A DNA stretch of 64,000 nt, taken from positions 91,241 to 155,240 of the forward strand of contig DAIDHS010000002.1 in NCBI GenBank assembly GCA_027451985.1, in the 5' to 3' direction. Positions 36,188 through 60,021 of the stretch are shown in pieces; position 1 is the stretch's first letter, and each line of letters begins with the position of its first letter. Position numbers and translations under genes: made by a program. Source of the DNA: Elusimicrobiota bacterium (GTDB lineage Bacteria; Elusimicrobiota; Elusimicrobia; UBA1565; UBA9628). The notes below the pieces were generated by a model. That model made no database searches. It was not told the DNA's origin and was given only the letters and a program-made list of their open reading frames with translations.

Positions 36188-37294
36188 TCAGGAGGCGGCG
36201 GGCTTAAAGGCGCACCACGGATCGGAGGCCAAGTAGTCCCCCGTCAAAGCGTAGGCTCGAGCGCGGGAGCCTCCGCACAAGGAGGCGAATTCGCAGCGGC
36301 CGCACTTGCCTTTGAGCAAAAGAGGATTCCGCAGATCGCGAAAAACCGGAGAGTTTCTGTAAACTTCGGCCAGCGAATTTCGGCGCACGTTCCCGGCGAC
36401 GATGGGCAAAAATCCCGATGGATAGACGTTCCCCACATGATCGACGAAAAGAAAACCTTTGCCTGCGTTGACCGCTTGCCGAGAGGACATCCGGTGCCCC
36501 TGTACGCCGACGCGAAAGCGCTGAACCTGGTCCAGTCGCCGCTGGAGCGCGAATCGCGCATAATGGGGCGCCTCGGTAATTTTAGCGACGAACGCACCGC
36601 CTTCGATGGAGGCGCTTTCCTGATTCAATTCGTAAACCCGCTCAAAAAGCGTTTCGCAGCGCCGGGCGGATAAGCCCGTCAGCCCCCGGCCCCGGCCCAT
36701 GGGAACAAGCAGGAAAATTTCCCAGAACACAGCTCCCAAATCCTGGACCAGCTTGATCATCTCCTCCAAGCAAGGCAAATTCCACGCGCCGAAGCAGGTG
36801 TTGATTTGAAGAGGCAACCCCGCTTTTCTGACCTCGGCCGCGGCGGCAATGGTTCGGGCGAATGCGCCTGGCACGCCGCGAAAAGAGTCGTGGAGTTCGG
36901 CATTAGGCGCGTCTAGGCTCAGGGCCAACTGATCGAGCCCAGCGTCCCTAAGAGATTCAAGTCTCGCTCGGGTCAGCCGCGGAGTCGCCGCGGGAATGGC
37001 GCCTGTATGCAGGCCGCGCATCTTCGCTCGGCGGACGAATACTTCCAGGTCGTCGCGGTTCAGCGCGTCGCCTCCGGAAAAAACCATGATTTTAGCCAGT
37101 GCCGCGGCCTCATCGACAATCCGCAAGCCCTCCTCGGTATTGAGCTCGCCCGGATCGCGGCGCATGTCAGCTTCGGCGCGGCAATGCTGGCAGGCCAAGG
37201 CACACGCCCTAGTCGTTTCCCAAATAATCAGAAGCGGCGAGCGATCGAAATCCAATTCGCTAAAGGAGGGGCGGGTCCCAGGCTTGGCGTTCAC
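36188..37294 (-). CDS. Radical SAM/SPASM protein, NirJ/AhbC-D-like
   Basis: The 368-residue enzyme has the radical SAM cluster motif CALACQHC near 31-38 and a C-terminal SPASM-type Cys set (GKCGRCEFASLCGGSRARAY plus a final DPWCAF) for a second Fe-S cluster. The block VYPSGFLPIVAGNVR is typical of heme-pathway radical SAM proteins (NirJ, AhbC/D) and relatives of unknown function. A role in heme or heme d1-like synthesis, or in peptide modification, would suit the cytochrome-rich surroundings. It overlaps the CBS gene by ATGA. Confidence 0.85.
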   Translation of the reverse strand: MNAKPGTRPSFSELDFDRSPLLIIWETTRACALACQHCRAEADMRRDPGELNTEEGLRIVDEAAALAKIMVFSGGDALNRDDLEVFVRRAKMRGLHTGAIPAATPRLTRARLESLRDAGLDQLALSLDAPNAELHDSFRGVPGAFARTIAAAAEVRKAGLPLQINTCFGAWNLPCLEEMIKLVQDLGAVFWEIFLLVPMGRGRGLTGLSARRCETLFERVYELNQESASIEGGAFVAKITEAPHYARFALQRRLDQVQRFRVGVQGHRMSSRQAVNAGKGFLFVDHVGNVYPSGFLPIVAGNVRRNSLAEVYRNSPVFRDLRNPLLLKGKCGRCEFASLCGGSRARAYALTGDYLASDPWCAFKPAAS

Positions 37295-40225: not shown

Positions 40226-40259
40226 GATTTAAATCATTTCTGCCATAGATTTAAGTCAT
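40226..40259 (+). repeat. Tandem 12-mer, probable operator
   Basis: GATTTAAATCAT (226-237) and GATTTAAGTCAT (248-259) differ by one base and repeat at a 22-base period, two helical turns, so both copies face the same side of the DNA. The core GATTTAAATC is itself a palindrome. It lies between the predicted start of transcription and the cytochrome gene. Confidence 0.5.
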
Positions 40260-40344
40260 GCCCCCTTCGATACGGATTTTTGAAGATATGGCCGGCAAAT
40301 TAATAAACTGTACTGGCTTTAATGCCAGACGAGGAGAATCGTTC

Positions 40345-40893
40345 ATGAAGAAAATCGTATTCACCGTTGCCGTCGTCGCCGTTGCTCTGGCTATCGGAAA
40401 AGTCGCCCAACAAAACCAGGTACAGGCCCAACAGAGCAATACTGCCGGAGGGCTTTTCCCCAACGATTTCGGACCGGCCAGTATCGACGTTTCCTCCTAT
40501 CCCAAGCAGTACCAGGAGACCTATAAAGTCTTCCTGGAAAAGTGCTCCGTCTGCCACACCATCGCTCGGCCCATCAACTCCCAGTTCCTGGAAATGTCCG
40601 AGGCCGAGCAGGCGCAAATGAAAAAGACGCAGCCCGAGTTATTTAAGGATCCTAAAATCCTTCAGATTGACCCGCACATCTGGTCCCGCTATGTGCACCG
40701 CATGATGGACAAGCCCGGCTGCCCGGTCGGCAAGGACGGCAAGCGCATCTGGCAATTCCTGGTCTACGATTCCATCGCGCGCAAAACCGGAAAAAACTTC
40801 GCCGCCTGGGAAAAAACCCGGGAGAAGCTTGTGAAGGACTTCAAAGTCCAGCACCCCGCAAGATACAAAGAGCTTTTCGACGAAGGGCAGTAA
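40345..40893 (+). CDS. Periplasmic monoheme cytochrome c
   Basis: The 182-residue protein has a signal peptide (KKIVFTVAVVAVALAIGKVA) and one heme c site CSVCH at about 67-71. Its conserved block, PASIDVSSYPKQYQETYKVF followed by the heme and TIARPINSQF, recurs in the cytochrome at 59500-60021, so the two are paralogs. Downstream Met and His residues could give the sixth heme ligand. The ATG at 40345 has GAGGAG. It is followed after 24 bases by the Cyc2-like gene and is a natural periplasmic electron carrier for it. Confidence 0.88.
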   Translation: MKKIVFTVAVVAVALAIGKVAQQNQVQAQQSNTAGGLFPNDFGPASIDVSSYPKQYQETYKVFLEKCSVCHTIARPINSQFLEMSEAEQAQMKKTQPELFKDPKILQIDPHIWSRYVHRMMDKPGCPVGKDGKRIWQFLVYDSIARKTGKNFAAWEKTREKLVKDFKVQHPARYKELFDEGQ

Positions 40894-40917: not shown

Positions 40918-42336
40918 ATGAAAACCTCATCTCTCAAGCGTTGGGCCCAAAGCCTGGGATTCTTAGCCGCTTACCTGGCGTTTCTCTGGCTGGCACAGCC
41001 GATGATCAATTCCGCACTCCACCTTTGCCCCATGCGCGGCGACGGCGTCCAGGGCGCAGACGCCCTTCCGGCCTTCGCCCGGAAGTACCACATGTCCTGC
41101 GAGCAATGCCACTACGCCTTTCCCGTCTTGAACGCCTACGGCCGGCAATTCAAGATGAACGGCTACGTCAGGACCCCGGGAAGCGATGAGGGCGTGCTCC
41201 AGAGCCAGGATAAGGAACTCTGGACCGAAAAGCTCTTTCCCTGGGCCGCCATCATCCGCTCCCGCCCCTTTGATGACGGCAAAGGCGGCGTGGCCAACCA
41301 AGGCAGCCAGATGGGCGGCACGGCCAGCCCCAACACCAACGGCTTCAAGATACAGGCCATCAACGACGTGGACATGTTCGTGGCCGGCGGTGACGCCGCC
41401 AGGCAGGTCTCCTTCTTCGGGGAAATGGACGCCAACGCTCCCGGCGGCTTCTCCCCGAGCCTGGGCGACATCCGGCTTGGCTACCATCCCAGCCTGTATT
41501 TCAACGCGGTGGCCATGCGGCGCGGGTTCTTCGCCGACGATCCCTATCAGACCATCGTCTCCAACGAAAGTCCCACCATCGCCAACCGGGCCACGGACCT
41601 GCTCTTCAAGGATCAGGGCTCCATCTCGGGCAACCAAATGGTGTCGACGCCGCAGACCCTCGAGATCTACGGCCAATACTTCCTGCCCCACAACCAAGAC
41701 TCCTTTTCCGCCCCGTCCTTCCTCTACTACTCTGGCGCCGTCTACAAGAATGCGGACTCCGGCACGCAGGCCAGCGCCCCCACCGACGGGGCGGTACGCC
41801 TAGCCTGGGATGACACCGGCAATACGGGGCTCATGCTGGGCACTTTCGGCACCTACGGGCATGAAGGTCCCATGACCTCAAGCACCATAGGATTGCAAGT
41901 GGCCAGTCCATACACCGAGCTGACTCAGTTCGTGCGCGGCGGATTCGACGCCCTTTGGGAGGGCGCCGGCTTCGCCGCGCGGGCGGCTTTCGTCTATTCG
42001 CACGATGAGGACCCCGCCGTTCGCGGTGCGGTGGCCACCGACCGGGCGGCCTATGCCGAGTTGGCCTACGACTACACAAGGAACAACAATAGCTATCCCT
42101 TCCTGATGCCCTTGGTGCGGGAGAATTGGTACACGACCTTCAACGGAGCGCAGCAGTTCAATTACCTGACCTTCCAGCTGGCGCACTACTTCGCGGCCAA
42201 CCTCAAGGCCTTCGTGGAGTACTCGCTCGACACCAAGCGCGCCTACCAGGGCGGATCGCTGGCCGCGCAGGGTTCCGACGGCACTTTCCAACCCTTGGGA
42301 GACCGTCTCACCGCCCAAGTCGAGGTCGGGTTCTAA
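40918..42336 (+). CDS. Cyc2-like outer-membrane cytochrome-porin fusion, copy 1
   Basis: The 472-residue protein has an N-terminal hydrophobic export segment (FLAAYLAFLWLAQP), a short heme c domain with ALPAFARKYHMSCEQCH at 50-65 followed by FPVLNAYGRQFKMNGY, and then about 380 residues of alternating beta strands ending in Phe (VEVGF), as in an outer-membrane barrel. One heme fused in front of a barrel, and the total length, are the known architecture of Cyc2/Cyt572, the outer-membrane Fe(II) oxidase. The similarity is by motif and layout, so the electron donor is unproven. A near-identical central part occurs in the gene at 47646-49082. Confidence 0.75.
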   Translation: MKTSSLKRWAQSLGFLAAYLAFLWLAQPMINSALHLCPMRGDGVQGADALPAFARKYHMSCEQCHYAFPVLNAYGRQFKMNGYVRTPGSDEGVLQSQDKELWTEKLFPWAAIIRSRPFDDGKGGVANQGSQMGGTASPNTNGFKIQAINDVDMFVAGGDAARQVSFFGEMDANAPGGFSPSLGDIRLGYHPSLYFNAVAMRRGFFADDPYQTIVSNESPTIANRATDLLFKDQGSISGNQMVSTPQTLEIYGQYFLPHNQDSFSAPSFLYYSGAVYKNADSGTQASAPTDGAVRLAWDDTGNTGLMLGTFGTYGHEGPMTSSTIGLQVASPYTELTQFVRGGFDALWEGAGFAARAAFVYSHDEDPAVRGAVATDRAAYAELAYDYTRNNNSYPFLMPLVRENWYTTFNGAQQFNYLTFQLAHYFAANLKAFVEYSLDTKRAYQGGSLAAQGSDGTFQPLGDRLTAQVEVGF

Positions 42337-42359
42337 CGGAGCGCGCATAAGGCCGGCCC

Positions 42360-43334
42360 ATGCCGCGAAAGGAGAAGCGCGCCATTTCCGAGACGTATCA
42401 GAAATACGCGCTGGGGCTGGCGAAAAACGAGCTTCTAAAACGGGATCCCCTTGCAGGAGAAGGGTCCGGGAGAAGGCAGGCGCTTGTCAACCAGCTTATT
42501 CGCCGCGGCGTCAAAGGCTGGCCTGAGCGCGGCACGTTCTACACGGGTCTTCTGGCTCCCGGATGCATCCCGTGCCTTGGCGGCCGCGGCAGCAATCTAT
42601 GCCTCACGACGCTTTGCACGAGGGACTGCTTTTTCTGCTTCAACCCCAAGCCCCGAAGCGAAGGGATTAGCGTCCACGGCTTAGCCATCTCCTCCGAGAG
42701 CGACATCCCGCGCATTCTCGCAGAACGCGGCATCCGAAGCGTGGGAATCAGCGGCGGAGAGCCCCTCTTAAAACCTGATGCCGTGCTGCGAATCATCAAA
42801 ATTCTGCGCGAACATTTTCGCGAAACCTTGCGCATTGATCTCTACAGCAACGGCGACAGGATTACCGCGAGCCTCCTTCGGGATTTACACTCGGCAGGCC
42901 TGAGCGGGATGCGCCTCAACCTCGCGGCCAACGGCTACAATCCCGCGCCGCTGGAGACGGCCCTTCGAGAATTTTCCGACGTGAGCGTCGAGATCCCGGT
43001 CATTCCTAGGCACGTCAAGCGTCTTCAAAAGATGGTGCGAGAAATGGCCCGCATCAAAGCGCCGCGGCTCATCCTCCACGAGCTTTTCGTATCGGCCCAG
43101 AATGCCGACGCGCTGCGCCGTCTAGGCATGCATGCTGCGGACAAAATGGGCGAAAAACTGACCTGGTCGCCCGTAGCAGGCAGCGACGAGGCCGCGCTTG
43201 AGCTCCTTTTATACGGCATGGACCATGCCCCCGAACTTTCCATCTATTACTGCTCGACCGGAACGCAGGAATGGATCGCGGAAAACGCCTTGGCGCATGC
43301 CGGAAGCCCCCCCACCCCAAACTCCATGCCATAG
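42360..43334 (+). CDS. Radical SAM protein following the Cyc2-like gene
   Basis: The 324-residue enzyme has the cluster motif CTRDCFFC, preceded by extra cysteines (GCIPCLGGRGSNLCLTTLC) that may bind a further cluster. The SAM-binding GISGGEPLL follows. AAGG precedes the ATG 23 bases after the Cyc2-like stop, so it is in the same operon. I do not recognise the subfamily. A role in maturing the upstream cytochrome-porin or in heme or cofactor chemistry is suggested only by position. Confidence 0.85.
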   Translation: MPRKEKRAISETYQKYALGLAKNELLKRDPLAGEGSGRRQALVNQLIRRGVKGWPERGTFYTGLLAPGCIPCLGGRGSNLCLTTLCTRDCFFCFNPKPRSEGISVHGLAISSESDIPRILAERGIRSVGISGGEPLLKPDAVLRIIKILREHFRETLRIDLYSNGDRITASLLRDLHSAGLSGMRLNLAANGYNPAPLETALREFSDVSVEIPVIPRHVKRLQKMVREMARIKAPRLILHELFVSAQNADALRRLGMHAADKMGEKLTWSPVAGSDEAALELLLYGMDHAPELSIYYCSTGTQEWIAENALAHAGSPPTPNSMP

Positions 43335-43373
43335 AACGATTACCGGCTGCGCCCAAAAAGGAAAAACGCCCGC

Positions 43374-44288
43374 ATGGAAACCAATGCCGTGCAGAAAGTC
43401 GATATAAAGCTGGGGTTCACGTGCAACAATCGCTGCAGTTTTTGCGTACAAGGCGACAAGCGCTTTTCAACCCCCGCACGGGACTGGGGGCGCATCGCCG
43501 AAGACCTCGAGCAAGGATTCCGGAACGGGGCACGAAGCCTAGTGCTCACGGGCGGAGAACCGACTCTGCAACCACGACTTCTGGATGCCGCGCGATTGGC
43601 GCGGACCATCGGATACAGCGTCGTCCAGATTCAGTCGAACGGACGGCGCTTTTTCTATCGCGACTTTTGCCGGGCCTGCATCGACGCCGGAGCCAACGAA
43701 TTCTCTCCCGCGCTCCACGGCTCCTGCCCAGAGATCCACGATAGTTTGACCCGTGCCCCGGGAAGCTTCCTGCAAACGCTTCACGGCATCCGCAACCTCA
43801 AGGAGCTCGGCCAAACCGTCATAGCCAACACCGTGATTACCGCCGGCAATTATCAAGATCTCCCTCGCCTGGCCGGACTTCTCGTTTCGCTGGGAGTCGA
43901 TCAATTCCAATTTGCTTTCGTTCATGTTCTGGGGGAAGCGCGAAAAAACGCGTCTTGGCTCGTCCCGCGAAAAAGCGCGGCGGCGCCCTTCATTCAAGAG
44001 GGCCTGCGCATCGGGCGCGAAGCCGGCGTCCGCTGTTTTACTGAAGCCATTCCTTACTGCTTCATGAGGGAGTTCGAGGATTGCATCGCGGAAAAAATCA
44101 TACCGCAGACCCTTATTTTTGATGGGAATAATGTCATCCCTGACTACAACTCCTATCGGCACACCCTGGGAAAAACCAAAGGCCCGCAGTGCCGAATTTG
44201 CCGCTACTTTACGGTTTGCGAAGGCCCTTGGAAAGAATATCCGGAATTATTTGGTTGGGACGAATTTTTCCCGATTGCCGCGCCTTAG
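43374..44288 (+). CDS. Second radical SAM protein of the Cyc2-like operon
   Basis: The 304-residue protein has CNNRCSFC close to its N terminus (LGFTCNNRCSFCVQGDKRF), the SAM-binding LTGGEPTLQ and a C-terminal auxiliary Cys set (CRICRYFTVCEGPWKEY). It lies 39 bases after the first radical SAM gene, with AAGGA before the ATG. Together the two are the third and fourth radical SAM genes within 8 kb. Its 3' end overlaps the convergent ccsA gene by 42 bases. The substrate is unknown. Confidence 0.85.
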   Translation: METNAVQKVDIKLGFTCNNRCSFCVQGDKRFSTPARDWGRIAEDLEQGFRNGARSLVLTGGEPTLQPRLLDAARLARTIGYSVVQIQSNGRRFFYRDFCRACIDAGANEFSPALHGSCPEIHDSLTRAPGSFLQTLHGIRNLKELGQTVIANTVITAGNYQDLPRLAGLLVSLGVDQFQFAFVHVLGEARKNASWLVPRKSAAAPFIQEGLRIGREAGVRCFTEAIPYCFMREFEDCIAEKIIPQTLIFDGNNVIPDYNSYRHTLGKTKGPQCRICRYFTVCEGPWKEYPELFGWDEFFPIAAP

Positions 44289-45890
44289 CTTAAAGCCGCA
44301 AACCCAGAGAAACAGCGCCAGCAATGCCAGTTCCGTGGCGATAAAGCGGAAAAGCCAAACGGCGGTGACGTCCGTAAAGCCGTACGAATGAAGCCCAACA
44401 CCCAGCATGTCGACTCCGAACCAGGACAGGGATGTTAATATCCCGCCCGCAATCGCCGACACCGCCAAGCCGTCCTCATCGAGATAGCCCCCAATCTTGG
44501 CGTGCAGAATCACCGCGTTCCAAAGCACGATCAGCAGAGCGCCATTTTCTTTCGGATCCCAGCCCCAAAATCGCCCCCAGGACTGATCCGCCCAGATGCC
44601 ACCCAGAACGGTCCCCAAGAAGCTGAAAAAAAGCGCGAGGCAGACAACGCCGTAAACCATCGAAGATAGCGCGGCCTCATCGCGCTTGCCGTACCGCTTG
44701 TTTCCCAAAAGCCGCCGGAAAACATGAATATGTCCAAGCGCTACGGCGAGGAACATAGCGCCGTAGCCCAGTGTGATGGCGACGACATGCGTGCTCAGCC
44801 AAAAATTGGAATTGAGCACGGCGCGCATCATTTCGATGGTGTCTCCATTGAGCGCCAAGTGGTGGGCGATAATAAGGGTCGCAAAACCGACCGCAGAGGC
44901 GGACAAAGCAGCGGAACCATCGGGGGCGCGCCCTTCCAGCCAGATCGCGGCGGCCACGGCGGCCCAGCCGACGAACACGGCAGAGGAATACAAGTTCGTT
45001 ACCGGCGGGCGCCCCTGTATGAGCATTCGCGCGGTTAAACCGCCCGTGTGCACCAGAAAGGCCGCGGCCAGAACCGTATAGCACGCGGCTCGCATGGATT
45101 TGCGCCACCGTTCTCCGCCCGCGAATGAAAGGAGCCCTAAAAGAAAAGCCGCCAAATAAAGAATCATCCCCCGGTAAAACGGCTCAATCCGGTTGAAAAG
45201 CGCTTCGAATCTAACCCGCCGCAGCGGCACGTCTGGGCGGCTCTTGAGCCAGGTTTGATCCAAATTCAGGACGCTGTTGAACCGGGCGGCATCTTCGGCG
45301 TGATAGCTTTGTAACATGGAAAAATAATCGGCGGCGGCACTTGGTTCGCGTGGATAAATGCTGAATTTGGCGTTTTCGTCATCAGGAGGGATCTTCGGGT
45401 TGGCCGCATCTTGGAGGCGCTCATAAAGCATCAAGCGCCTCGCCAGTCCCAGTGCGGCGGAATCAAAACGGGAGCGCTGCGGAGCATTGTCTGCCTCGAT
45501 GCGGGCGATTTGGTCCGCCAAAACGTCCACGGACGGCTTAAGCTCATCGAAAGAAAAACGCCGGCGTTCCGTAGATGGCAGGCCCAGGAACGTCCTAAGC
45601 TGAGGATCGTCAATAAGAAACACGTGGTAAGAATCTGCCGTTTCAGGCCGCGTTAGAAGGTTCAGGAGCCACCGATCGGCTCCAAGGCTGCCGTTGTCCG
45701 CGCCCAGCGTCTGCTTTCCGCTAATAATAAGCAACGAATCGCGCGCGACCGTGTCAAACGGCTTAATTCTGCCTTCCGAAAGGACCGGAAGCGATCCGAA
45801 TCCATCGAGATTCATGCCTGCCGGAAATTTTGCGGGCGCGGGCACGAGCGCGAGACACGCCAATATGGCGGCGGCATAAGTCTTCCTCAT
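44247..45890 (-). CDS. ccsA: Cytochrome c maturation protein CcsA/ResC (system II)
   Basis: The 547-residue protein has a signal-like first helix, a periplasmic region of about 220 residues, and then about eight membrane segments. The heme-handling tryptophan-rich WWD motif is clear (DQSWGRFWGWDPKENGALL), and conserved His residues flank it (LSTHVVAITLG, LHSYGFTD). It exports and presents heme for attachment to CxxCH proteins, together with ResB. The ATG at 45890 overlaps the resB stop (TAATG). The large periplasmic insert is common in CcsA fusions of some lineages. Confidence 0.92.
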   Translation of the reverse strand: MRKTYAAAILACLALVPAPAKFPAGMNLDGFGSLPVLSEGRIKPFDTVARDSLLIISGKQTLGADNGSLGADRWLLNLLTRPETADSYHVFLIDDPQLRTFLGLPSTERRRFSFDELKPSVDVLADQIARIEADNAPQRSRFDSAALGLARRLMLYERLQDAANPKIPPDDENAKFSIYPREPSAAADYFSMLQSYHAEDAARFNSVLNLDQTWLKSRPDVPLRRVRFEALFNRIEPFYRGMILYLAAFLLGLLSFAGGERWRKSMRAACYTVLAAAFLVHTGGLTARMLIQGRPPVTNLYSSAVFVGWAAVAAAIWLEGRAPDGSAALSASAVGFATLIIAHHLALNGDTIEMMRAVLNSNFWLSTHVVAITLGYGAMFLAVALGHIHVFRRLLGNKRYGKRDEAALSSMVYGVVCLALFFSFLGTVLGGIWADQSWGRFWGWDPKENGALLIVLWNAVILHAKIGGYLDEDGLAVSAIAGGILTSLSWFGVDMLGVGLHSYGFTDVTAVWLFRFIATELALLALFLWVCGFKLRRGNREKFVPTK

Positions 45891-46696
45891 TAAACGTGCG
45901 CTCCTCGGCGTAACTTTCCCAGGAAATGAAGCAGAAGTCCCGACCCGATCATCAGGCAGGCCGCGTAGGGCAAGAGCCAACCGGGATTGCGGGTAACCTC
46001 AAGGATGGAGGACTTGCCCCCCTGAACAAAGCTCGCCTGGTAGAATGCAAATCCTCCGTAACGCAAAGGATGATTCATGCTAATCAGCACTTGTCTGTGC
46101 ACATGCCTTAATGGATTATCTAACTCGACAAGACTGGAGAAAGCCCTCGGAATATTCGTATACGGATAGTAGTCGCTGGTAAAGCGCTTAAGAGTCAGAC
46201 TGAAGGGAAGCTTGCGGAATGAGGAGGAGTGCGCGCTTTCCATTTCCGAAACGCTTTCGCCTTGGGGAAGAATCATCCGCGACTCCGACTGGAGCGCTCC
46301 CGTGACGAACTGTCCACCCAAAAGCAGTATGAGACCCACATGAGTGAGCCAAAGCCCCAGTTTGCGCCAAGTCAAGCTGAGGCGCACGAACATCGCCGCC
46401 GTTAGATTAAGGATCAGCACCGCGCCCGTGGCCCCTCCCGCAGGCAAAATGGGAATGGCCGGCCATCCGGCAATTGGACGAAAACTGAGGAAAGCGCTGT
46501 CTATAAAAATACGCACTGATTCGTAGTTCCCCAGCCACACCTGCGCCACAGTGCACAACGCCACCAGAACCATCAGCCACAGCATGGCGGCAAGCGCCAC
46601 TTCCACGGAGGCAATGCCCCCCACTATGCGCTTCCATGCGGGAATGCCAGATCGCCTGGAGTAAAGAGATTGCGGATGAACAGATGAAGCTCTCAT
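45890..46696 (-). CDS. resB: ResB-like cytochrome c maturation protein (system II)
   Basis: The 268-residue protein has four membrane segments with a periplasmic domain between the third and fourth, the ResB/Ccs1 layout. HPLRYGGFAFYQASFVQ is the family block before the last helix. With CcsA it makes the system II heme lyase. It is shorter than typical ResB (about 450), as in other lineages with minimal forms. The ATG at 46696 lies 3 bases after the predicted sigma-54 start; a GTG at 46624 with GGAAG is an alternative start that would give a normal leader. Confidence 0.85.
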   Translation of the reverse strand: MRASSVHPQSLYSRRSGIPAWKRIVGGIASVEVALAAMLWLMVLVALCTVAQVWLGNYESVRIFIDSAFLSFRPIAGWPAIPILPAGGATGAVLILNLTAAMFVRLSLTWRKLGLWLTHVGLILLLGGQFVTGALQSESRMILPQGESVSEMESAHSSSFRKLPFSLTLKRFTSDYYPYTNIPRAFSSLVELDNPLRHVHRQVLISMNHPLRYGGFAFYQASFVQGGKSSILEVTRNPGWLLPYAACLMIGSGLLLHFLGKLRRGAHV

Positions 46697-46710
46697 TTAT
46701 TTTTTATCAA

Positions 46711-46725
46711 GCAACATAAAAGCCA
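46711..46725 (-). promoter_or_regulatory. Sigma-54 promoter of the resB-ccsA operon
   Basis: Minus strand TGGCTTTTATGTTGC has GG-N10-GC and a perfect TTGC. It matches the promoter at 38434-38448 in 14 of 15 positions. The predicted start is near 46699, just before the resB ATG. It is back to back with the promoter at 46750-46764. Confidence 0.7.
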
Positions 46726-46749
46726 CCAATCCGAAGCCTTTCAATATTT

Positions 46750-46764
46750 TGGCCACTGTGTTGC
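46750..46764 (+). promoter_or_regulatory. Sigma-54 promoter of the FNR-type regulator gene
   Basis: TGGCCACTGTGTTGC has GG-N10-GC, the full TGGC of the -24 box and TTGC at -12. Transcription would begin near 46776, 3 bases before the ATG at 46779. It overlaps an upstream TTG codon (46749), which argues against that codon as the start of the regulator. Confidence 0.7.
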
Positions 46765-46778
46765 ATGAACACATCCAT

Positions 46779-47576
46779 ATGAGAAGACGGCCTTCTTGCC
46801 AGGGCGCCTCCTGCCCTTTACAGAATTTTCCCCTTTTTGAAGGGCAATCTCCGGAGCTTTGGCAGCAATTTGCGAACACCGTCGTTGCCAACAACTATAA
46901 ACGCAACGACATTCTTTTCTACGAGGGCAACATTCCCCAGGGCATCTACTTTATGTGCCAGGGACGCCTCAAGCTAATTAAGGACAACCACTCCGGCAAA
47001 AGCCAGATCGTGCGCATTGTGGAAGCGCCCAATCTCGTCGGAGACAGATCCTTTTTCTCGGAGCGGCCCTACGCCAGTTCCGGCGTCATAATGGAAGACG
47101 CGACGATTTGTTTCCTTAGCACCCGGCGCTTCTGGAGTCTTTTCGATAGCCAGACCGGCCTTGCACGGCGGATGGCGCAACGCTTCGCACGTGAGTTGGG
47201 AAAAGCCGAGGAACAGATGCATTGCCTGGCGGTGTGCACGGTCAATGGGCGTCTCGCGGCCTATTTGCTAAAAAAAACCGCCCCGGCGCGGCCGGCCAAT
47301 AACGGCAACGGCGGAGACTTTAAAATAAATAACCGCGCCCACACGGCGACCGTAGAGCTTAAGGAAAGCCGCACCGAACTCGCGCAAATTTTAGGAACTA
47401 CCGTCGAGGCCGTCAGCCGCGCGCTGGCGGAACTCCGGCGCAAGGGCGTTATTCGCGTAGACGGCCGTAAAATATCAATCCAAGACGCAGAACGCCTGGG
47501 CCGGATCGGGTGCAATAACTGTGCGGCCAGCTGGAGCTGGAACAACGAAGTTGACAAAAATCAAACCCTGCTTTGA
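46779..47576 (+). CDS. FNR-type transcription regulator
   Basis: The 265-residue protein has an N-terminal Cys pair (CQGASC at 7-12), a cyclic-nucleotide-fold sensor domain (NDILFYEGNIPQGIYFMCQG, VGDRSFFSERPY), a dimer helix and a C-terminal HTH. The recognition helix TTVEAVSRALAEL has the E-x-x-S-R pattern that in FNR reads TTGAT half sites. Three such boxes occur in this window. The four-Cys cluster pattern of E. coli FNR is not reproduced exactly, so the sensed signal (oxygen, NO or redox) is open. I chose the ATG at 46779; the TTG at 46749 lies inside the promoter. Confidence 0.88.
   Translation: MRRRPSCQGASCPLQNFPLFEGQSPELWQQFANTVVANNYKRNDILFYEGNIPQGIYFMCQGRLKLIKDNHSGKSQIVRIVEAPNLVGDRSFFSERPYASSGVIMEDATICFLSTRRFWSLFDSQTGLARRMAQRFARELGKAEEQMHCLAVCTVNGRLAAYLLKKTAPARPANNGNGGDFKINNRAHTATVELKESRTELAQILGTTVEAVSRALAELRRKGVIRVDGRKISIQDAERLGRIGCNNCAASWSWNNEVDKNQTLL
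47551..47564 (+). promoter_or_regulatory. FNR box upstream of Cyc2-like copy 2
   Basis: TTGACAAAAATCAA matches TTGAT-N4-ATCAA with one mismatch. It lies within the last codons of the FNR-type gene. With TATAGC at 47585-47590 as a -10 box, its centre falls about 40 bases before the start of transcription, the usual place for FNR class II activation of the gene at 47646. Confidence 0.7.
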
Positions 47577-47645
47577 CTCCATTTATAGCGGTCCTGCAAA
47601 CATCCTGGATATGATGCTTAAGTCGTTATAATCCAGGAGGTAAAA

Positions 47646-49082
47646 ATGGAAGGGCAAAAAATCAAACGGTTCTCGCGATGTTCGCACATCTTTAAGTTGA
47701 CGACAGTTGCGATTACGGGTCTAGCGTTGTTTTGGCTGGCCCCCCCGATGGTGCATCAATTGGAGCATTTATGCCCGGCGCGCCCGGACGGCGTGACGCA
47801 GGTGTACGCGCTTCCAAGTTTTGCGCGGGAATATCACATGTCATGCGAGCAATGCCACTACGCCTTCCCCGTCTTGAACGCTTTCGGCCGGCAATTCAAG
47901 ATGAACGGATACGTGGTAGTCCCCGGAAGCGATCAGGGGGTGCTCCAGAGCCAAGATAAGGAACTCTGGACCGAGAAGCTCTTCCCCTGGGCCGCCATCA
48001 TCCGCTCCCGCCCCTTTGACGACGGCAAAGGCGGCGTGGCCAACCAAGGCAGCCAGATGGGCGGCACGGCCAGCCCCAACACCAACGGCTTCAAGATACA
48101 GGCCATCAACGACGTGGACATGTTCGTGGCCGGCGGTGACGCCGCCAGGCAGGTCTCCTTCTTCGGGGAAATGGACGCCAACGCTCCCGGCGGCTTCTCC
48201 CCGAGCCTGGGCGACATCCGGCTTGGCTACCATCCCAGCCTGTATTTCAACGCGGTGGCCATGCGGCGCGGGTTCTTCGCCGACGATCCCTATCAGACCA
48301 TCGTCTCCAACGAAAGTCCCACCATCGCCAACCGGGCCACGGACCTGCTCTTCAACGATCAGGGCTCCATCTCAGGCAACCAAATGGTGTCGACCCCGCA
48401 GACTCTCGAGGTCTACGGCCAGTATTCCCTCCCCATAATCCAGAACTCTTTCCTCTACTACTCCGGCGCCGTCTACAAGAACAAGGACTCGGGCACGCAG
48501 GCCAGCGCTCCCACCAACGGAGCGGCGCGCCTAGCCTGGGACGATACCGGCAATACGGGGCTCATGCTGGGCACTTTCGGCACCTACGGGCACGAAGGTC
48601 CCATGGCCGCAGCCGGGGCGAGCAGCGGTGCGCCGGGATTGAGCGTGGCGGGTCCTGGGGGCGAACTCACTCAATTCGTGCGCGGCGGCTTCGACGCGCT
48701 CTGGGAGCATGGCAATTTCGCGGCGCGGGCGGCTTTCGTCTATTCGCACGATGAGGACCCCGCCGTTCGCGGCGCGGTGGCCACCGACCGGGCGGCTTAT
48801 GCCGAAGTTGCATACAAATACCTCAGGAACGACAATCTCTATCCCTTCCTGATGCCCTTGGTGCGGGAGAACTGGTACACGACCTTCAACGGGGCGCAGC
48901 AGTTCAACTACCTGACCTTCCAGTTGGCACACTACTTCGCGGCCAACCTCAAGGCCTTCGTGGAGTACTCGCTCGACACCAAGCGCGCCTACCAGGGCGG
49001 CTCGCTTGCCGCGCAGGGCTCCGATGGCACTTCCCAACCCTTGGGAAACCGCGTGTCGCTGCAGGCAGAAGTAGGATTCTAG
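47646..49082 (+). CDS. Cyc2-like outer-membrane cytochrome-porin fusion, copy 2
   Basis: The 478-residue protein has the same layout as copy 1: export helix (LTTVAITGLALFWLAPP), heme c motif YHMSCEQCH with the heme Cys at 68, then a long barrel ending VEVGF. The N-terminal 60 residues differ strongly from copy 1, while the central barrel is nearly identical, including 335 bp with no base change. A loop of about 8 residues near position 325 (AAAGASSGAP) differs. AGGAGG precedes the ATG. It has its own FNR-box promoter and no radical SAM partners, so the two copies may serve different conditions. Confidence 0.75.
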   Translation: MEGQKIKRFSRCSHIFKLTTVAITGLALFWLAPPMVHQLEHLCPARPDGVTQVYALPSFAREYHMSCEQCHYAFPVLNAFGRQFKMNGYVVVPGSDQGVLQSQDKELWTEKLFPWAAIIRSRPFDDGKGGVANQGSQMGGTASPNTNGFKIQAINDVDMFVAGGDAARQVSFFGEMDANAPGGFSPSLGDIRLGYHPSLYFNAVAMRRGFFADDPYQTIVSNESPTIANRATDLLFNDQGSISGNQMVSTPQTLEVYGQYSLPIIQNSFLYYSGAVYKNKDSGTQASAPTNGAARLAWDDTGNTGLMLGTFGTYGHEGPMAAAGASSGAPGLSVAGPGGELTQFVRGGFDALWEHGNFAARAAFVYSHDEDPAVRGAVATDRAAYAEVAYKYLRNDNLYPFLMPLVRENWYTTFNGAQQFNYLTFQLAHYFAANLKAFVEYSLDTKRAYQGGSLAAQGSDGTSQPLGNRVSLQAEVGF

Positions 49083-49359: not shown

Positions 49360-50280
49360 TTACTCGGCCGTTCCTTTGGGCCGAGGGGCTTCTGCGGCGA
49401 GTTTGGCAAGTTCCGCGTGAAATGACAGCCACTGGCTCCGATCGAGAGTAGCTGCGGCAGGCTCGAAACCGTTGCGCGGCGCGTCCGCCATGACAACGCC
49501 GGCGAAAAGATTCAAATTCTCACGCCATCCGGGAACCAGCGCGAGCACGGCTGCCGCTCTTTGCGGATCGGCGATGAGCCGCCGGCAGAGCCTGGCACCG
49601 AGGCTGTCATCCAAAACGGGAGGCATCCGAACCGCCTGCGGCGCCCTATATTCTGCCGCCATGTGCTCCATGACTATGGGCACGGCCACTTTATTAGGAG
49701 TTCGAGTTCCTCCGGAAAAATGATACTCGACCTCCAATCGATTGATTTCCGCGGCCTTGTCGTCATGGTGATTGAAATGGCCGAGGGACTGCACGTAATG
49801 GGCCAGCGCGAAGCGGTCCGCCACAGAAAGAGTGCCGAAAGATCCCATGGCGGTCTTGGGAATTCCGGCGGTTAAGGTCTCATAGATGTCGGCGATCGTG
49901 TAGCCGCGCGTCCAACCCCGCGGGCTCGTGAAATTTCGCGGCGGAGGCTTGAGCGCCGCAGCCACAGGGCCATTCCCTTGCCCCGTCATGCCGTGACAGG
50001 CAACGCAAGAAGTGGCAAAAACTGTTTTACCGCGGGCCAGCGCCTGCGGAGCAGCATCGAACATTTCAGGGAGGTTGACACCGGCAGTCGTTACTTTGCC
50101 TATGACGGTTTTAAAAACCGTCGGATCGGGAGATTCCTTATTGGCCGCAATAGCCTGGCTATAGGTCAGGCCCTGAGCGCCATGCCCATTCATAAGCACC
50201 CGCCCGACAACAAGAATGCCGCCAAAGACCACGACCGCACCCGCCGTAGTGGCGATAATTGCCTTCGTCTGCTCGGACAT
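49360..50280 (-). CDS. Membrane-anchored monoheme cytochrome c of the alternative complex III operon
   Basis: The 306-residue protein has an N-terminal membrane helix (IIATTAGAVVVFGGILVVG) and a periplasmic cytochrome domain with one heme site CVACHGMTGQGNGP, then a C-terminal extension of about 150 residues with no heme. It is last in the act operon. I chose the ATG at 50280, which has AGGAAAGAGGGG upstream; an ATG at 50295 overlaps the actF stop by ATGA and is also possible. It may accept electrons from the complex or add an extra cytochrome subunit. Confidence 0.8.
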   Translation of the reverse strand: MSEQTKAIIATTAGAVVVFGGILVVGRVLMNGHGAQGLTYSQAIAANKESPDPTVFKTVIGKVTTAGVNLPEMFDAAPQALARGKTVFATSCVACHGMTGQGNGPVAAALKPPPRNFTSPRGWTRGYTIADIYETLTAGIPKTAMGSFGTLSVADRFALAHYVQSLGHFNHHDDKAAEINRLEVEYHFSGGTRTPNKVAVPIVMEHMAAEYRAPQAVRMPPVLDDSLGARLCRRLIADPQRAAAVLALVPGWRENLNLFAGVVMADAPRNGFEPAAATLDRSQWLSFHAELAKLAAEAPRPKGTAE

Positions 50281-50291
50281 CCCCTCTTTCC

Positions 50292-51434
50292 TCATTGAAG
50301 ATGGAACCTCAGCCCCGCATTTAAAAATGGATCACCAACAGGCATATCCTCTCCTGCGCTCATGGCGCGCTTGAGCACCAAGAACCCAGCCGATAAGAAG
50401 AAAAGGGCGAACGCAAGTTCGGGCCAGCCCAGATGGAGCCCTCGGCCTAAAATGGGGGAGATCAGCCAGAAGAGATCGACGAACTCCATGAAGAGAACCC
50501 AAATCGACACCCATACGAGGCGGCGCTCATTTTTCTTGGCTTTTCTCGTCATCAGCGCCAGGAACGGAACGAAAAAGTGTCCGATAAGGAGAAGCATGAA
50601 GACGGGCTTCATGGGCCCGGACGTGCGCTGCTGGAACCAGAACACCTCTTCGGGCAGATCGGCGTACCACTGGAGCAGGTATTGCGAGAATGCAATATAC
50701 CCCCAAAATATGGTGAAACCGAAGAGAAGCCCGCCAAGATTGTAGAGGTGATCGCCCGTAACGGCCGGAAGCCTGCCGCGGCGCCGCAGAAACACCGTGA
50801 CTAAAAGAGTCGTTGCGAGCGCGGAGGTTACCGCGCCGGCAAAGAGGTAAACCCCAAAAATATCGCTGTACCAGGCGGCCTCCAGGCTCGAAATCCAATC
50901 GAAAGCAAAGGACGTGAGACTCAAGGCGAGCAGGATCATGAACACCGGAGAATAGCGCTGGAGACTGACGGTAACAGACGCATTCTTGGTGATGTCCTGA
51001 CGCATCGAGCGCCCAACAAGCAGATAGTAAGACATGACCCAAAAGGCTACGCAGACGGCCAGCCGCGCGATGAAAAATGGATAATTCAGCCACGCGGCTT
51101 TTAAAACCAGAGGGGTAATCTTGTCGGCGCCCGGCTGCGTCCAAGAGAAAACGACCGGCAGTGAAAATAGCGCGATAATCGCCACGGGAATAATCCAGAG
51201 GGTCAGCGCAGAAACCCTCTCGGGAACTCTTCGCAGCGGCACGCTCCAAATCGAACCGGTGATGTGTTGCAAGGCGACCAGGAAAAGCGATCCGAGCGCA
51301 ACGCAGGCTAAAAAGACGAACCAGAGAATCCAATTGGCCCAGAACCGCGGCGCTCCCTCCAGGAAATAGACGGCCACTACTCCCGCCGCTCCAATCGCCG
51401 CTAATGTCTGCAAAATCCAGGACTTCCGCGTCAC
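50292..51434 (-). CDS. actF: Alternative complex III subunit ActF
   Basis: The 380-residue integral membrane protein has about ten helices and is the second quinol-side NrfD-like subunit family of alternative complex III (ActF). Blocks such as VFFLACVALGSLFLVALQHI and WVSIWVLFMEFVDLFWLI fit the family. The start is a GTG at 51434 that overlaps the actDE stop as GTGA and has GGAGGAAGGA upstream. An ATG at 51461 would overlap the previous gene by 31 bases. Confidence 0.88.
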   Translation of the reverse strand: MTRKSWILQTLAAIGAAGVVAVYFLEGAPRFWANWILWFVFLACVALGSLFLVALQHITGSIWSVPLRRVPERVSALTLWIIPVAIIALFSLPVVFSWTQPGADKITPLVLKAAWLNYPFFIARLAVCVAFWVMSYYLLVGRSMRQDITKNASVTVSLQRYSPVFMILLALSLTSFAFDWISSLEAAWYSDIFGVYLFAGAVTSALATTLLVTVFLRRRGRLPAVTGDHLYNLGGLLFGFTIFWGYIAFSQYLLQWYADLPEEVFWFQQRTSGPMKPVFMLLLIGHFFVPFLALMTRKAKKNERRLVWVSIWVLFMEFVDLFWLISPILGRGLHLGWPELAFALFFLSAGFLVLKRAMSAGEDMPVGDPFLNAGLRFHLQ

Positions 51435-52594
51435 TCCTTCCTCCCTCCTATAGCGTGCCACCGCACGTCTTGTTCCGGCGCGTCTTGAGAACGCTGAAGA
51501 GCCCTGATGTAGCGAACAATCGCCCAGCGATCATCGGGTGAAATATCCGCCGCGTGGGCCGGCATGGGGCCATAACCCTGCGAAATGACCCAATAAATGT
51601 AGCCGTCGGGCACGCTGCGCAAAGTGGAGGACTGAAGATCGGCCGGTTGAGCTTGATAGCCGCTGCCCAGCCAGGGCTTGCCCGTTCCCAGCCTGTCATG
51701 GCAGACGGCGCAATGCAGATCGAACATGTGCCGTCCCCGTTCAAGCACGCGCGCAGAAATCGGCAGCGGATTTATCAAGCTCCTCCCGCCCGACTGCGGG
51801 CTGTCGGAAAGAATAGGCATATCGCCGCGCGGCACCGTGCCATCGGGCGGCATCCGCATGCCCCGGTCATCCGCAAAAAAGCTGTCCGGCATCTCCGGAT
51901 CGAGCCTCGGCTGGTTTTCCATATTGACCATCGGCGGAATTGTCGGGAAAATTTTGATTGCCCCAACCGTTCCTGCGGCGGCGACGAGGCAGGCTGCGGC
52001 AATGGCCGCAATGGTTCTTGCCCACCAAGCGGCACCAGGCTTCTCATGGATGGGCTCTGGAAGAACTTCAACCGCGTCCCCGCCGGCTGCGCGCAAGGCT
52101 TTAGCCGCAGCGTCCGGATCGAATGGGCTATCCGTAGGCTTTTTAAGCAACAAGGCGAACTTGTCCCGCATAATATCGGGCATAGCCTCACTGCCCAGGA
52201 CCGGGTGGCCGAAGTAAGGAAGCTTGTTGAAGAGAATAAGCATTCCCAAACCCGCCGTAAATGTTCCGAAGAAGATCGCACCTTCCAAAGTGACTGGAAT
52301 CCAGGCCGGCCAACTGTTGTACGGCTTGCCGCCCATAAGCAGCGGGTAGTTGATGGCGTTGGTCCACCAGGCCAAACCGAAAGCTCCGAGCGCGCCGAAT
52401 GCGCCCATCAAGAAGACGAGGATGCCCAGCTTCGACTTCGGCAGATCAAGAGCTTCGTCTAGACCGTGTACCGGATAAGGCGTATAGGCATCTATTTCGG
52501 AGTAGCCGCCGGCTTTGAGCTTGGGAATTGCCGTCAACAGGTTCTCCGCGCTGGGGAAAAGCGCCAGGACGCCATAAACAGCAGGCTCAGACAT
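51431..52594 (-). CDS. Alternative complex III ActD-ActE fusion (DUF3341 plus cytochrome c)
   Basis: The 387-residue protein joins two normally separate subunits. Residues 1-180 are the membrane ActD part (DUF3341; AVYGVLALFPSAENLLTAIP, two helices around LGILVFLMGAFGALGAFGLA). A further helix (TIAAIAAACLVAAAGTVGAI) is followed by a periplasmic ActE-like monoheme domain with CAVCH and the usual GDGNG-like region replaced by RLGTGKPWLG. It starts at the ATG at 52594, overlapping actC by 8 bases. Confidence 0.88.
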   Translation of the reverse strand: MSEPAVYGVLALFPSAENLLTAIPKLKAGGYSEIDAYTPYPVHGLDEALDLPKSKLGILVFLMGAFGALGAFGLAWWTNAINYPLLMGGKPYNSWPAWIPVTLEGAIFFGTFTAGLGMLILFNKLPYFGHPVLGSEAMPDIMRDKFALLLKKPTDSPFDPDAAAKALRAAGGDAVEVLPEPIHEKPGAAWWARTIAAIAAACLVAAAGTVGAIKIFPTIPPMVNMENQPRLDPEMPDSFFADDRGMRMPPDGTVPRGDMPILSDSPQSGGRSLINPLPISARVLERGRHMFDLHCAVCHDRLGTGKPWLGSGYQAQPADLQSSTLRSVPDGYIYWVISQGYGPMPAHAADISPDDRWAIVRYIRALQRSQDAPEQDVRWHAIGGRKE

Positions 52595-54011
52595 GTCCTG
52601 TCTCCATGAGCCTAGCGCGTTCGGGGTCCCGCGCCGAAGTCCGTCGCCGCGCAAGCTCCTGGACGATGTCGGGCTTGACCTCCCAAGCCGCGATGAGAGG
52701 AATATTCTTCAGGAAAAGCAGAAGAAGCGTAAGGAAGATTCCAATAGAACCCAAAAGAATACCCCAGTCGACAGGGGTAGGTTTGTAGATTCCCCATGTC
52801 GCGGGCAGGTAGTCGCGATGAAGGGAGAGAATAATGATGGTATAGCGTTCCATCCACATCCCCAGCGTCACGCCGGATGAAACCAGCACCATGATGGGCA
52901 CGGAACGGCGGAACTTCGGCACCCACAGCAACTGAGGCAAAAGGCAATTGCAGAAGATCGTCAGGCACCCCGCCCACCATTGGTCTCCAAAGACGTAATT
53001 CACAAAAATGTAGCGGACGAAGTCATTCGAACTGTACCAAGCCGTAAAACCTTCCATGAGATACGCGTACGCCATGACGCACGAGAGGAAGAGCACCATC
53101 TTGTTCAGAAGGTCCATGTGCCGCATAGTGATGTAGTTTTCCAACTTCATCGTTGTCCGCACAAAGGCAAAGACCAGCACCACGCCGGCGAATCCCGAGA
53201 AGGCCGCCCCGACCACGAAATAGGGCGGGAAAATGGTCATGTGCCATCCGGGCACAACGGAAGCAGCGAAATCCATCGACACGATGCTGTGAACGCTCAA
53301 GGCCAGGGTGGTGGTGAGACCGGCCAAAAGAAGATACGCCTGCTCATATTGGAGCCAGTGTCTAGCGTCTCCAACCCAGCCCCAGCTCAACACGCTGAAA
53401 ATGGCGCGCTTAATCTTACTCTTAACCCGCCCGCGCAAGGAAGCGAAGTCGGGAATCAAGCCCAAATACCAGAAGAAAACAGACACGCTGAAGTAAGTGA
53501 AGACAGCAAAGACGTCCCATATGAGCGGAGAGCGAAAATCAGGCCACAGGTCCCGCTCATTGGGATAAGGGAGCAACCAATGCGGCAACCATGGGCGGCC
53601 GATATGAATGGCCGGGAACATCATCGCGCAGATAAAAGCAAAAACCGTCACGGCCTCGGCAATCCGACAGATAGCATTGCGCCAGCGCTGGCGGAACAAA
53701 AGAAGAATAACCGAGATCAAGGTTCCGGCATGTCCAATGCCGACCCAAAACACAAAATTAACGATTAAAAAACCCCACACCACGGGCACGTTGTTTCCCA
53801 TAGTGCCGATGCCCGTCGAGATCATGTAGCCCACGGCAGAAAAGCCGAGAAGAGCCATCAGGCTGGTAATCGCGATGGCGATATACCAGGAGCGCGGCGG
53901 TTTGGTCTCGATGAGTTCCAAAACATGCTGGTCGAGGCCGGCGATGGAGACATCCCCCTCAACGATGGGATCAAGACGAAGCTCTGGCGGCAGCACGATG
54001 GCCTCAGACAC
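52587..54011 (-). CDS. actC: Alternative complex III subunit ActC (NrfD-like)
   Basis: The 474-residue membrane protein has about ten helices and belongs to the NrfD/PsrC family, which binds quinol next to the Fe-S subunit. Its N-terminal segment (IETKPPRSWYIAIAITSLMA) and central SMDFAASVVPGWHMTIFPPYF block are typical of ActC. It overlaps actB by 8 bases upstream and actD/E by 8 bases downstream. In the complex it passes electrons from menaquinol toward ActB and the heme subunits; direction could reverse during electron uptake. Confidence 0.93.
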   Translation of the reverse strand: MSEAIVLPPELRLDPIVEGDVSIAGLDQHVLELIETKPPRSWYIAIAITSLMALLGFSAVGYMISTGIGTMGNNVPVVWGFLIVNFVFWVGIGHAGTLISVILLLFRQRWRNAICRIAEAVTVFAFICAMMFPAIHIGRPWLPHWLLPYPNERDLWPDFRSPLIWDVFAVFTYFSVSVFFWYLGLIPDFASLRGRVKSKIKRAIFSVLSWGWVGDARHWLQYEQAYLLLAGLTTTLALSVHSIVSMDFAASVVPGWHMTIFPPYFVVGAAFSGFAGVVLVFAFVRTTMKLENYITMRHMDLLNKMVLFLSCVMAYAYLMEGFTAWYSSNDFVRYIFVNYVFGDQWWAGCLTIFCNCLLPQLLWVPKFRRSVPIMVLVSSGVTLGMWMERYTIIILSLHRDYLPATWGIYKPTPVDWGILLGSIGIFLTLLLLFLKNIPLIAAWEVKPDIVQELARRRTSARDPERARLMETGHV

Positions 54012-57155: not shown

Positions 57156-57713
57156 CTAGCGATGGCAGGCCGTGCAATCGGTCGGCCCCCTCTTTATGGA
57201 AGAATTCGGCGGCAGATACGGCTCCGGGTGCCGATGGCAGGCTAGGCACCGCCCCATGCGCATATTCATGACGCGGCGCACCACATTCATTTTCTGCACG
57301 GGGCCATGACAGCTTTGACACTGAATTCCCGCGTTGATGTGCGCGCGATGATCGAAGAACACGTGCTGGGGAAGATGGTAAATCCGTTTCCACTCAAGAG
57401 ACTTGTCGGATTTCACCAAACTCTCGATTGTCTTGCTGTAAGGGCTATTCACAAAATGATGGCAATTCAGACAGGTCTGGAAAGCGGGCACTGTGGCGTA
57501 ACGGCTGCGCCCGGCATTCGTATGGCAATACTCGCACGGGATATGGTTAATCCCGGCATGGATGAGGTGTGAAAACGGCATGGGCTGCGTCGGTTCGTAG
57601 CCAATCGCGTATCGGTCCGGCTCCGCCAGGAATCCCGCCACAAGGATGGTGACGATGATGCACAATGCACCCACCGGCATCACGAGACGCCAAAACCTAT
57701 CCTTCGGATGCAT
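57156..57713 (-). CDS. actA: Alternative complex III pentaheme cytochrome ActA
   Basis: The 185-residue protein has an N-terminal membrane helix (VMPVGALCIIVTILVAGFLA) and five CxxCH sites: CEYCH, CLNCH, CQSCH, CLACH and CTACH. This count and the length match ActA. It carries electrons from the Fe-S and NrfD subunits to soluble carriers. It lies 13 bases after the upstream cytochrome gene. Confidence 0.94.
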   Translation of the reverse strand: MHPKDRFWRLVMPVGALCIIVTILVAGFLAEPDRYAIGYEPTQPMPFSHLIHAGINHIPCEYCHTNAGRSRYATVPAFQTCLNCHHFVNSPYSKTIESLVKSDKSLEWKRIYHLPQHVFFDHRAHINAGIQCQSCHGPVQKMNVVRRVMNMRMGRCLACHRHPEPYLPPNSSIKRGPTDCTACHR

Positions 57714-57726
57714 CAGAACGTATTAC

Positions 57727-58170
57727 CTAGTCATGCCCGACGCCGTGCGTTTTCCCGCCCTTCCCGGCATATTTTTTCGCTTCCAGACTGCGGAGGTAAG
57801 CGACGACATCAGCGATCTGATCATCGTTCAGCTGCCCTTTCCAGGCCGGCATTTTACCGGCCTTCCCGTTTCGGATGATGTCGGTCACCTGAGTATCCGT
57901 AAGCTGGCGAACCCGGCTCGATGTCAGATTCATGAGGGCAACATCCACGCCGAAAGCGCTCGCCATAGCCGGATTGCCTGTAGCCGAAGCCGCGTGACAG
58001 GTCACGCAGTTAGTCTGAAAAACCTTCGCTCCGGCTAGCGTCGGATCCGGGGCGGCGCCCTTGGCGGTCGCCGCATTTTTTCCTTCAGCGCATGCAATGC
58101 CGCCAGCAAGCACCGCTCCGGCAAGCGCCAAAAATCCCGCCGCCCTCCCAAAGCCGCTCTTTACTCTCAT
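57727..58170 (-). CDS. Small monoheme cytochrome c (class I)
   Basis: The 147-residue protein has a lipoprotein-like signal (LAGAVLAGGIAC) and a class I cytochrome fold: heme site CVTCHAAS, conserved DIIRNGKAGKMPAWKGQLND with the Met ligand, and a C-terminal IADVVAYLRSLE helix. It resembles cytochrome c6/c555-type carriers. It overlaps tatA by ATGA and precedes actA, so it is probably the soluble partner of alternative complex III. Confidence 0.9.
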   Translation of the reverse strand: MRVKSGFGRAAGFLALAGAVLAGGIACAEGKNAATAKGAAPDPTLAGAKVFQTNCVTCHAASATGNPAMASAFGVDVALMNLTSSRVRQLTDTQVTDIIRNGKAGKMPAWKGQLNDDQIADVVAYLRSLEAKKYAGKGGKTHGVGHD

Positions 58171-59439: not shown

Positions 59440-59499
59440 GTAACCTTAATTTACTAGGCGTCGTGGCGCATATTCTTGATAGATGAGGAGGAGACTACG

Positions 59500-60021
59500 G
59501 TGAAATTGTATATATGGATACTGGCCTTGCTAGCCGCTCCAATTACGCCCGTGTTCGGCGCTGGGAGGCAGAAAATAGGCGGGGCCAGCGTTCCGCGATT
59601 CTATTACGACCTAGGCCCTTCTCAAATCGACGTGTCAGCCTATCCTAAAGTCCAGCAGGAAAACTACAAGGTATTCGCGCAAACCTGCTCCCAGTGCCAC
59701 ACTCTGGCGCGCCCCATCAACTCGCCGATGATCAGCCGGCGAGACTGGAGCCGCTACATCGGGCGCATGACCGTCAACAGCAAGAACGCCCCGGTCAAGC
59801 CCATCACCAAATCCGAGCGGGATTCCATCCTAAGTTTCCTTGTTTACGATGCGAAAATTCGCAAAGTCGATTATCGCGCGAAGTTCACGGCTCAAACGGC
59901 CTCTTTGAAGGAACAGTTCGCCCAGTTCAAGAAAGCGCACCTGCGGCAGGAGCAGAAAAAGAACGCAAACCGGCAAAGCCGCAGCTATTTTTATTCCGGA
60001 CCTTCTCCAAGGCCGTACTAA
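59500..60021 (+). CDS. Periplasmic monoheme cytochrome c, paralog of the one at 40345
   Basis: The 173-residue protein starts at a GTG with AGGAGGAG just upstream and a signal peptide (LYIWILALLAAPITPVFGAG). The block SQIDVSAYPKVQQENYKVFA leads to the single heme site CSQCH and LARPINSPM, then WSRYIGRM. The same order occurs in the cytochrome at 40345, but this copy lacks an insert of about 35 residues after the heme and has a Lys/Arg/Gln-rich C-terminal tail. An ATG at 59476 would add a short acidic stretch before the signal and is unlikely. Confidence 0.88.
   Translation: MKLYIWILALLAAPITPVFGAGRQKIGGASVPRFYYDLGPSQIDVSAYPKVQQENYKVFAQTCSQCHTLARPINSPMISRRDWSRYIGRMTVNSKNAPVKPITKSERDSILSFLVYDAKIRKVDYRAKFTAQTASLKEQFAQFKKAHLRQEQKKNANRQSRSYFYSGPSPRPY

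Follow-up and report, generated by a model that had tools for sequence, protein, structure and literature searches.

Divergent Cyc2-like cytochrome-porins linked to alternative complex III genes suggest a candidate route for electron uptake in Elusimicrobiota

We analyzed a window of 64,000 nucleotides from the draft genome (2.4 Mb, 95% complete) of an Elusimicrobiota bacterium (contig DAIDHS010000002.1, positions 91,241 to 155,240). It encodes two proteins that resemble Cyc2, the fused cytochrome-porin of iron-oxidizing bacteria. Both genes are on the forward strand, exactly where the first-pass annotation of this DNA had placed them: copy 1 at 40918..42336 (472 amino acids) and copy 2 at 47646..49082 (478 amino acids). 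Copy 1 comprises a leader (residues 1-49), a heme c domain (50-83) and a predicted 16-strand barrel domain that extends to the C-terminal Phe472. Each protein has a single CXXCH motif, CEQCH, about 60-70 residues in as reported earlier (residues 61-65 in copy 1 and 67-71 in copy 2) and approximately 12 residues past the predicted cleavage point. The ending VEVGF that had been assigned to both proteins occurs in copy 1, whereas copy 2 ends in LQAEVGF; the terminal Phe is invariant in alignment A1. Likewise, the heme flank that had been considered to fit Cyc2 is exact in copy 1 (ALPAFARKYHMSCEQCH...NAYGRQFKMNGY) but differs in copy 2 (ALPSFAREYHMSCEQCH...NAFGRQFKMNGY), which has Glu in place of the Gln or Lys of the published Cyc2 motif. 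The copies are 86% identical paralogues and are not independent examples. No Pfam or NCBIfam family matches either protein, and a search of the whole genome, including with a Cyc2 profile, recovered copies 1 and 2 and no third cyc2. Homologues were identified in 34 of 196 related genomes and across many phyla, and thus the observation exceeds chance.

Cyc2 has been defined by the motif AXPXFAR[Q/K][T/Y] before CXXCH, PXL after it, a length above 365 residues and a porin with 16 strands (Keffer et al., PMC8406198). Both proteins exceed this length. Copy 1 matches AXPXFAR[QK][TY]-CXXCH-PXL exactly (PXL is four residues downstream) and copy 2, in which FAREY replaces FAR[QK][TY], misses it by one residue. 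The miss may weigh little because the strict motif is present in only 16/60 homologues of other phyla (and in 14/20 members of the Elusimicrobiota clade described below). The first-pass annotation had suggested a search with the Cyc2 profiles of FeGenie. In their place, we used our own hidden Markov model (HMM), built from 56 full-length homologues from phyla outside Elusimicrobiota, which matches copy 1 with E 6e-26 and copy 2 with E 1e-27. The heme-domain HMM alone gives E values of about 1e-19 for the window proteins, and this domain is much more conserved than the barrel. Two other proteins of the Elusimicrobiota clade, L052 and L045, match the Cyc2 barrel HMM with E 1.5e-7 and 2.6e-6, respectively. 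Comparison of barrel profile to barrel profile using hhalign gave 95% probability and E 1.7e-8 over 315 columns, and full-length profiles align with E 3e-27; reversed and shuffled barrel profiles used as controls gave E 0.24-0.45 and probabilities below 0.3%. Based on sequence, then, both proteins are members of the Cyc2 family, and the Elusimicrobiota barrel is homologous to the Cyc2 barrel, although far diverged, given that both profile comparisons are significant and the controls fail. Single-sequence searches detect the heme domain only, as the barrel is too diverged, and such genes are thus probably under-counted. A tblastn search of plasmids returned short heme-domain matches only, in five proteobacterial plasmids.

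An AlphaFold model built from 19 sequences (mean predicted local distance difference test score, pLDDT, 66; predicted template modeling score, pTM, 0.67) has one N-terminal helix (residues 4-33), short helices near the heme site and, by our count, 16 barrel strands between residues 107 and 471. In the heme region pLDDT is only about 37-68. The top Foldseek matches are the 16-strand porins BpsOmp38, PorB, VhChiP, OmpU and OmpF (best E 2.5e-10; target TM-score about 0.6-0.7). Cyc2 of Chlorobium sp. N1, modeled likewise as a control (pLDDT 70, pTM 0.73), also has 16 barrel strands by our count and matches AlgE, OprP and OprO as well as the same porins. The models are thus consistent with the Cyc2/Cyt572-type architecture that had been proposed and with a 16-strand barrel, which had been named as a supporting result. 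Closure of the barrel is suggested by the porin matches rather than by the coordinates, and by analogy to Cyc2 the heme domain would sit at the periplasmic mouth of the barrel. The result that the first-pass annotation had named beforehand as contrary to its proposal, no Cyc2 profile match together with no closed barrel, was not obtained. Sequence searches of solved structures with copy 1, the clade profile and the Cyc2 profile returned nothing usable and no solved Cyc2 structure.

The suspicion that these proteins might represent a new branch is supported by a tree of 84 sequences, in which the 20 proteins from Elusimicrobiota group into a single clade (SH-aLRT support 97) that is joined by one Acidobacteria sequence only (98). 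This clade is apart from the Chlorobium/Gallionella group, i.e., it does not place within cluster 1 of Cyc2. Its members share a leader consisting of a hydrophobic helix, W...P and then ...CPVRPDGV..AxA before xPxFAR, in which W24, P28 and C37 are invariant in the 19 aligned members. A loose form of this pattern (W..P...CP) was found in 20/20 clade members versus 0/60 homologues of other phyla. Cleavage after AxA is predicted to remove the leader. We rejected the possibility that CPVRPDG is a phylum-wide export signal, as the corresponding DNA pattern, present in 14 of 97 related genomes, is almost confined to cyc2-like genes. The same leader occurs in a canonical-type Cyc2 of Elusimicrobiota (L026), and it therefore appears to characterize this protein family in the phylum as a whole. 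In all clade members the conserved leader Cys (C37 in copy 1) precedes the predicted cleavage site (in the window, 40918-41067 and 47646-47810). Three further Elusimicrobiota relatives (L025, L027 and L029) have a similar leader and an altered heme surround (AITAWARKYGVSCNVCH..GYKLT..GQ.FL..GH), and possibly another function.

Copy 2 converges with a complete operon for alternative complex III (ACIII) on the reverse strand, as had been noted from the sequence. We identified ActA with five CXXCH motifs (57156..57713), ActB with molybdopterin-type and Fe-S domains (54004..56949), ActC of the NrfD family (52587..54011), ActD fused to a monoheme cytochrome c domain (51431..52654; PF11821, E 8e-50), a probable ActF (50292..51461) and a monoheme cytochrome c that is probably ActE (49360..50295). 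The ActF gene lacks a Pfam match and was assigned from gene order, matching position in and similarity to the act-linked loci L044 and L047. Another monoheme cytochrome c gene (57727..58170, reverse strand) adjoins ActA. On the forward strand, a monoheme cytochrome c (40258..40893, CSVCH, likely start 40345) is encoded 24 nucleotides upstream of copy 1, and a second member of this conserved partner family is located at 59476..60021.

The association is not limited to this window. In eight relatives (L039, L043, L044, L046, L047, L048, L050 and L052) cyc2, a monoheme cytochrome, ActA and ActB form a contiguous run on one strand, which continues to ActC in all except L046 and L050 (6/8). In most of these loci, the cytochrome directly downstream of cyc2 belongs to the partner family. 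In four other loci (L073, L080, L086 and L090; all Opitutae except L086), a member of this family is encoded on the strand of cyc2 and about 5 kb upstream of it, and the family may be a general partner of Cyc2 outside Elusimicrobiota. Within the taxonomic family of the window genome, ActD is present in 19/19 genomes with a cyc2-like gene versus 14/25 without (Fisher p 0.0009, which is optimistic given shared ancestry). The operon linkage in relatives lends sequence-based support to the earlier suggestion of a route from the outer membrane to quinone via monoheme carriers and the act operon. The genome also encodes aa3 and bd oxidases, and another member of the monoheme cytochrome family (G000:C10:15398-15541) precedes the cytochrome bd gene by about 3 kb. 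Within the literature collection that was searched, no paper names Elusimicrobi- together with alternative complex III.

We consider it fairly probable that these are divergent Cyc2-family outer-membrane cytochrome-porins that receive electrons, most likely from Fe(II), and pass them to a monoheme cytochrome, the aa3 oxidase and ACIII. Once the long leader is removed, the short heme c domain would lie at the periplasmic end of the 16-strand barrel, where a soluble donor from outside the cell could reduce the single heme. Fe(II) is suggested as this donor by analogy to the family. The heme would then reduce a periplasmic monoheme cytochrome of the conserved partner family, from which electrons would travel mostly downhill to the aa3 oxidase, with some of them exchanged with the quinone pool via ACIII. 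Several points weigh against this reading. The barrel of copy 1 alone does not match the Cyc2 barrel HMM significantly (E 0.14), and the window barrels are significant at the family-profile level only; the confidence of the structural model is modest; and copy 2 deviates from the published motif. The Elusimicrobiota proteins are outside the clade of tested neutrophilic Cyc2, and many Cyc2 homologues belong to organisms that are not known as iron oxidizers. We did not identify RuBisCO in the genome, and autotrophic growth on iron by way of this enzyme is thus unsupported and was rejected. Due to the lack of RuBisCO and the presence of histidine degradation genes nearby (60-63 kb of the window), iron would more likely supplement the energy supply than sustain autotrophy.

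The same machinery could serve another extracellular donor (e.g., Mn(II), reduced humics, a partner cell or a mineral surface), in which case Fe(II) would not be physiological. Genes of this branch are found in groundwater and other Elusimicrobiota metagenome-assembled genomes (MAGs) besides MAG 13 from acid mine drainage, and the function of distant Cyc2 homologues is rated as uncertain (Keffer et al., PMC8406198). However, the HMM matches indicate that the heme domain closely resembles its counterpart in tested Cyc2, and the MAG 13 relative comes from a habitat documented as iron-rich (PMC8357290). We regard a different donor as unlikely, if the strongest competitor to Fe(II).

Electrons might also flow outward: ACIII would oxidize quinol, the monoheme cytochrome would relay the electrons to the Cyc2-like heme, and this heme would reduce an external acceptor (e.g., Fe(III)). 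ACIII is normally a quinol oxidase, and the genome looks heterotrophic, both of which favor this direction. On the other hand, a single heme on the periplasmic side suits a soluble donor that enters the pore rather than a mineral acceptor (an argument made in PMC8406198), and terminal oxidases are encoded in the genome. Outward flow therefore seems improbable to us. It is still harder to reconcile with the data that the proteins are substrate-specific porins in which heme is merely a redox switch or structural plug without a respiratory role. In favor of this reading, the barrel is strongly diverged and resembles general porins, but the operon with the monoheme cytochrome and ACIII is conserved and the heme domain is far more conserved than the barrel.

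Copies 1 and 2 share an identical tract of 335 nucleotides at the start of the barrel region (41275..41609 and 48021..48355, both forward strand; codons 120-230), whereas beyond it about 67 of 281 codons for identical amino acids differ silently. By our arithmetic, the chance of 111 unchanged codons at the outside rate is about 1e-13. Given this difference between the tract and its surroundings, gene conversion between the copies is probable and is the simplest reading of the sequences. Metagenome assemblers can copy repeats, and an exact match of this length could raise that concern, but an assembly artefact is hardly credible since the copies differ in their ends and neighbors within one contig and since another MAG (L053 and L054) has two different N-terminal halves that enter one shared sequence of at least 141 nucleotides, at contig ends.

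Compared with cluster 1 Cyc2 (Mariprofundus, Gallionellaceae and Chlorobium), the window proteins share the N-terminal monoheme domain, AXPXFAR..CXXCH..PXL, FGRxFKxxGY and the modeled 16-strand barrel. They also share the association with ACIII: Gallionella L110 has ActA-F beside cyc2. They differ in forming a separate clade from the phylum Elusimicrobiota, in a barrel that is detectable by profile only, in having RKY/REY in place of RQT, and in the long leader with invariant Trp24, Pro28 and Cys37. Cyt572 of Leptospirillum (cluster 3) and Cyc2 of Acidithiobacillus ferrooxidans (cluster 2) have the same architecture, judging from their description in the literature (PMC8406198). The act operon resembles that of ACIII of the Rhodothermus/Chloroflexus type in combining pentaheme ActA, ActB, ActC, ActD, cytochrome subunits and ActF, although ActD of the window carries a fused cytochrome c domain. 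ActB is one chain here and is split in Gallionellaceae (PMC4643136).

Cyc2 as a kind of protein is well known, as is the occurrence of a Cyc2-like gene in this phylum: Grettenberger and Hamilton (PMC8357290) reported one in Elusimicrobia MAG 13 from Cabin Branch acid mine drainage, in passages that do not discuss ACIII or a separate branch. The closest named relatives of the window proteins are from Elusimicrobia MAGs that include MAG 13, and several others are labeled as groundwater isolates. A homologue on contig JABEUV010000114.1 of MAG 13 (L036), which may differ from the gene that was reported, is of the same family and 59% identical to copy 1. MAG 13 has one gene, near histidine kinase and radical SAM genes, whereas the window has two copies, the cytochrome partner and the act operon together. 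What we add is a separate branch with its own leader, a homogenized gene pair and the contiguous run of cyc2, cytochrome and ACIII genes. Elusimicrobiota are not counted among the established iron oxidizers, and those in cultivation are strict anaerobes (PMC8357290). A phylum-wide Cyc2 branch encoded in one run with a dedicated cytochrome and ACIII offers a concrete and testable candidate for how electrons could pass from the cell surface into the quinone pool. A route via Cyc2 and ACIII was earlier proposed for Mariprofundus (PMC4643136, PMC5566968). Our data extend the link known from Gallionellaceae and Mariprofundus to a phylum unrelated to them, and this is relevant to the question of whether the pairing marks iron oxidation.

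Between the two copies, the reverse strand encodes the cytochrome c synthetase subunits of the CcsA/CcsB type (44247..45980, PF01578) and ResB-like type (45890..46696, PF05140), and the gene for a Crp/Fnr-type regulator (46749..47576, forward strand) immediately precedes copy 2. Several radical SAM genes are associated with cyc2. Radical SAM protein 1 (42360..43334) begins 23 nucleotides after copy 1 and is followed by radical SAM protein 2 (43374..44288), which is HxsC4-like but under the cut-off of that model; both are on the forward strand. Another radical SAM gene is at 37768-38418, and a radical SAM/SPASM protein that resembles AhbD/TIGR04053 is encoded on the reverse strand (36188..37294). 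The latter is the best AhbD match in the genome, and the cyc2 operons of L038, L040 and L041 contain a related gene, with cyc2 followed contiguously by the cytochrome, the AhbD-like radical SAM gene, radical SAM 1 and radical SAM 2. Neither ferrochelatase (PF00762) nor siroheme decarboxylase (PF17805) was identified in the 95% complete genome, which encodes many c-type cytochromes. It is conceivable, if rather doubtful, that the radical SAM proteins make or modify the heme of this branch, either as a supply route or to provide a modified heme dedicated to the outer-membrane oxidase. The window also encodes a heme-free outer-membrane porin of the OprO/OprP type (28681-30153, PF07396).

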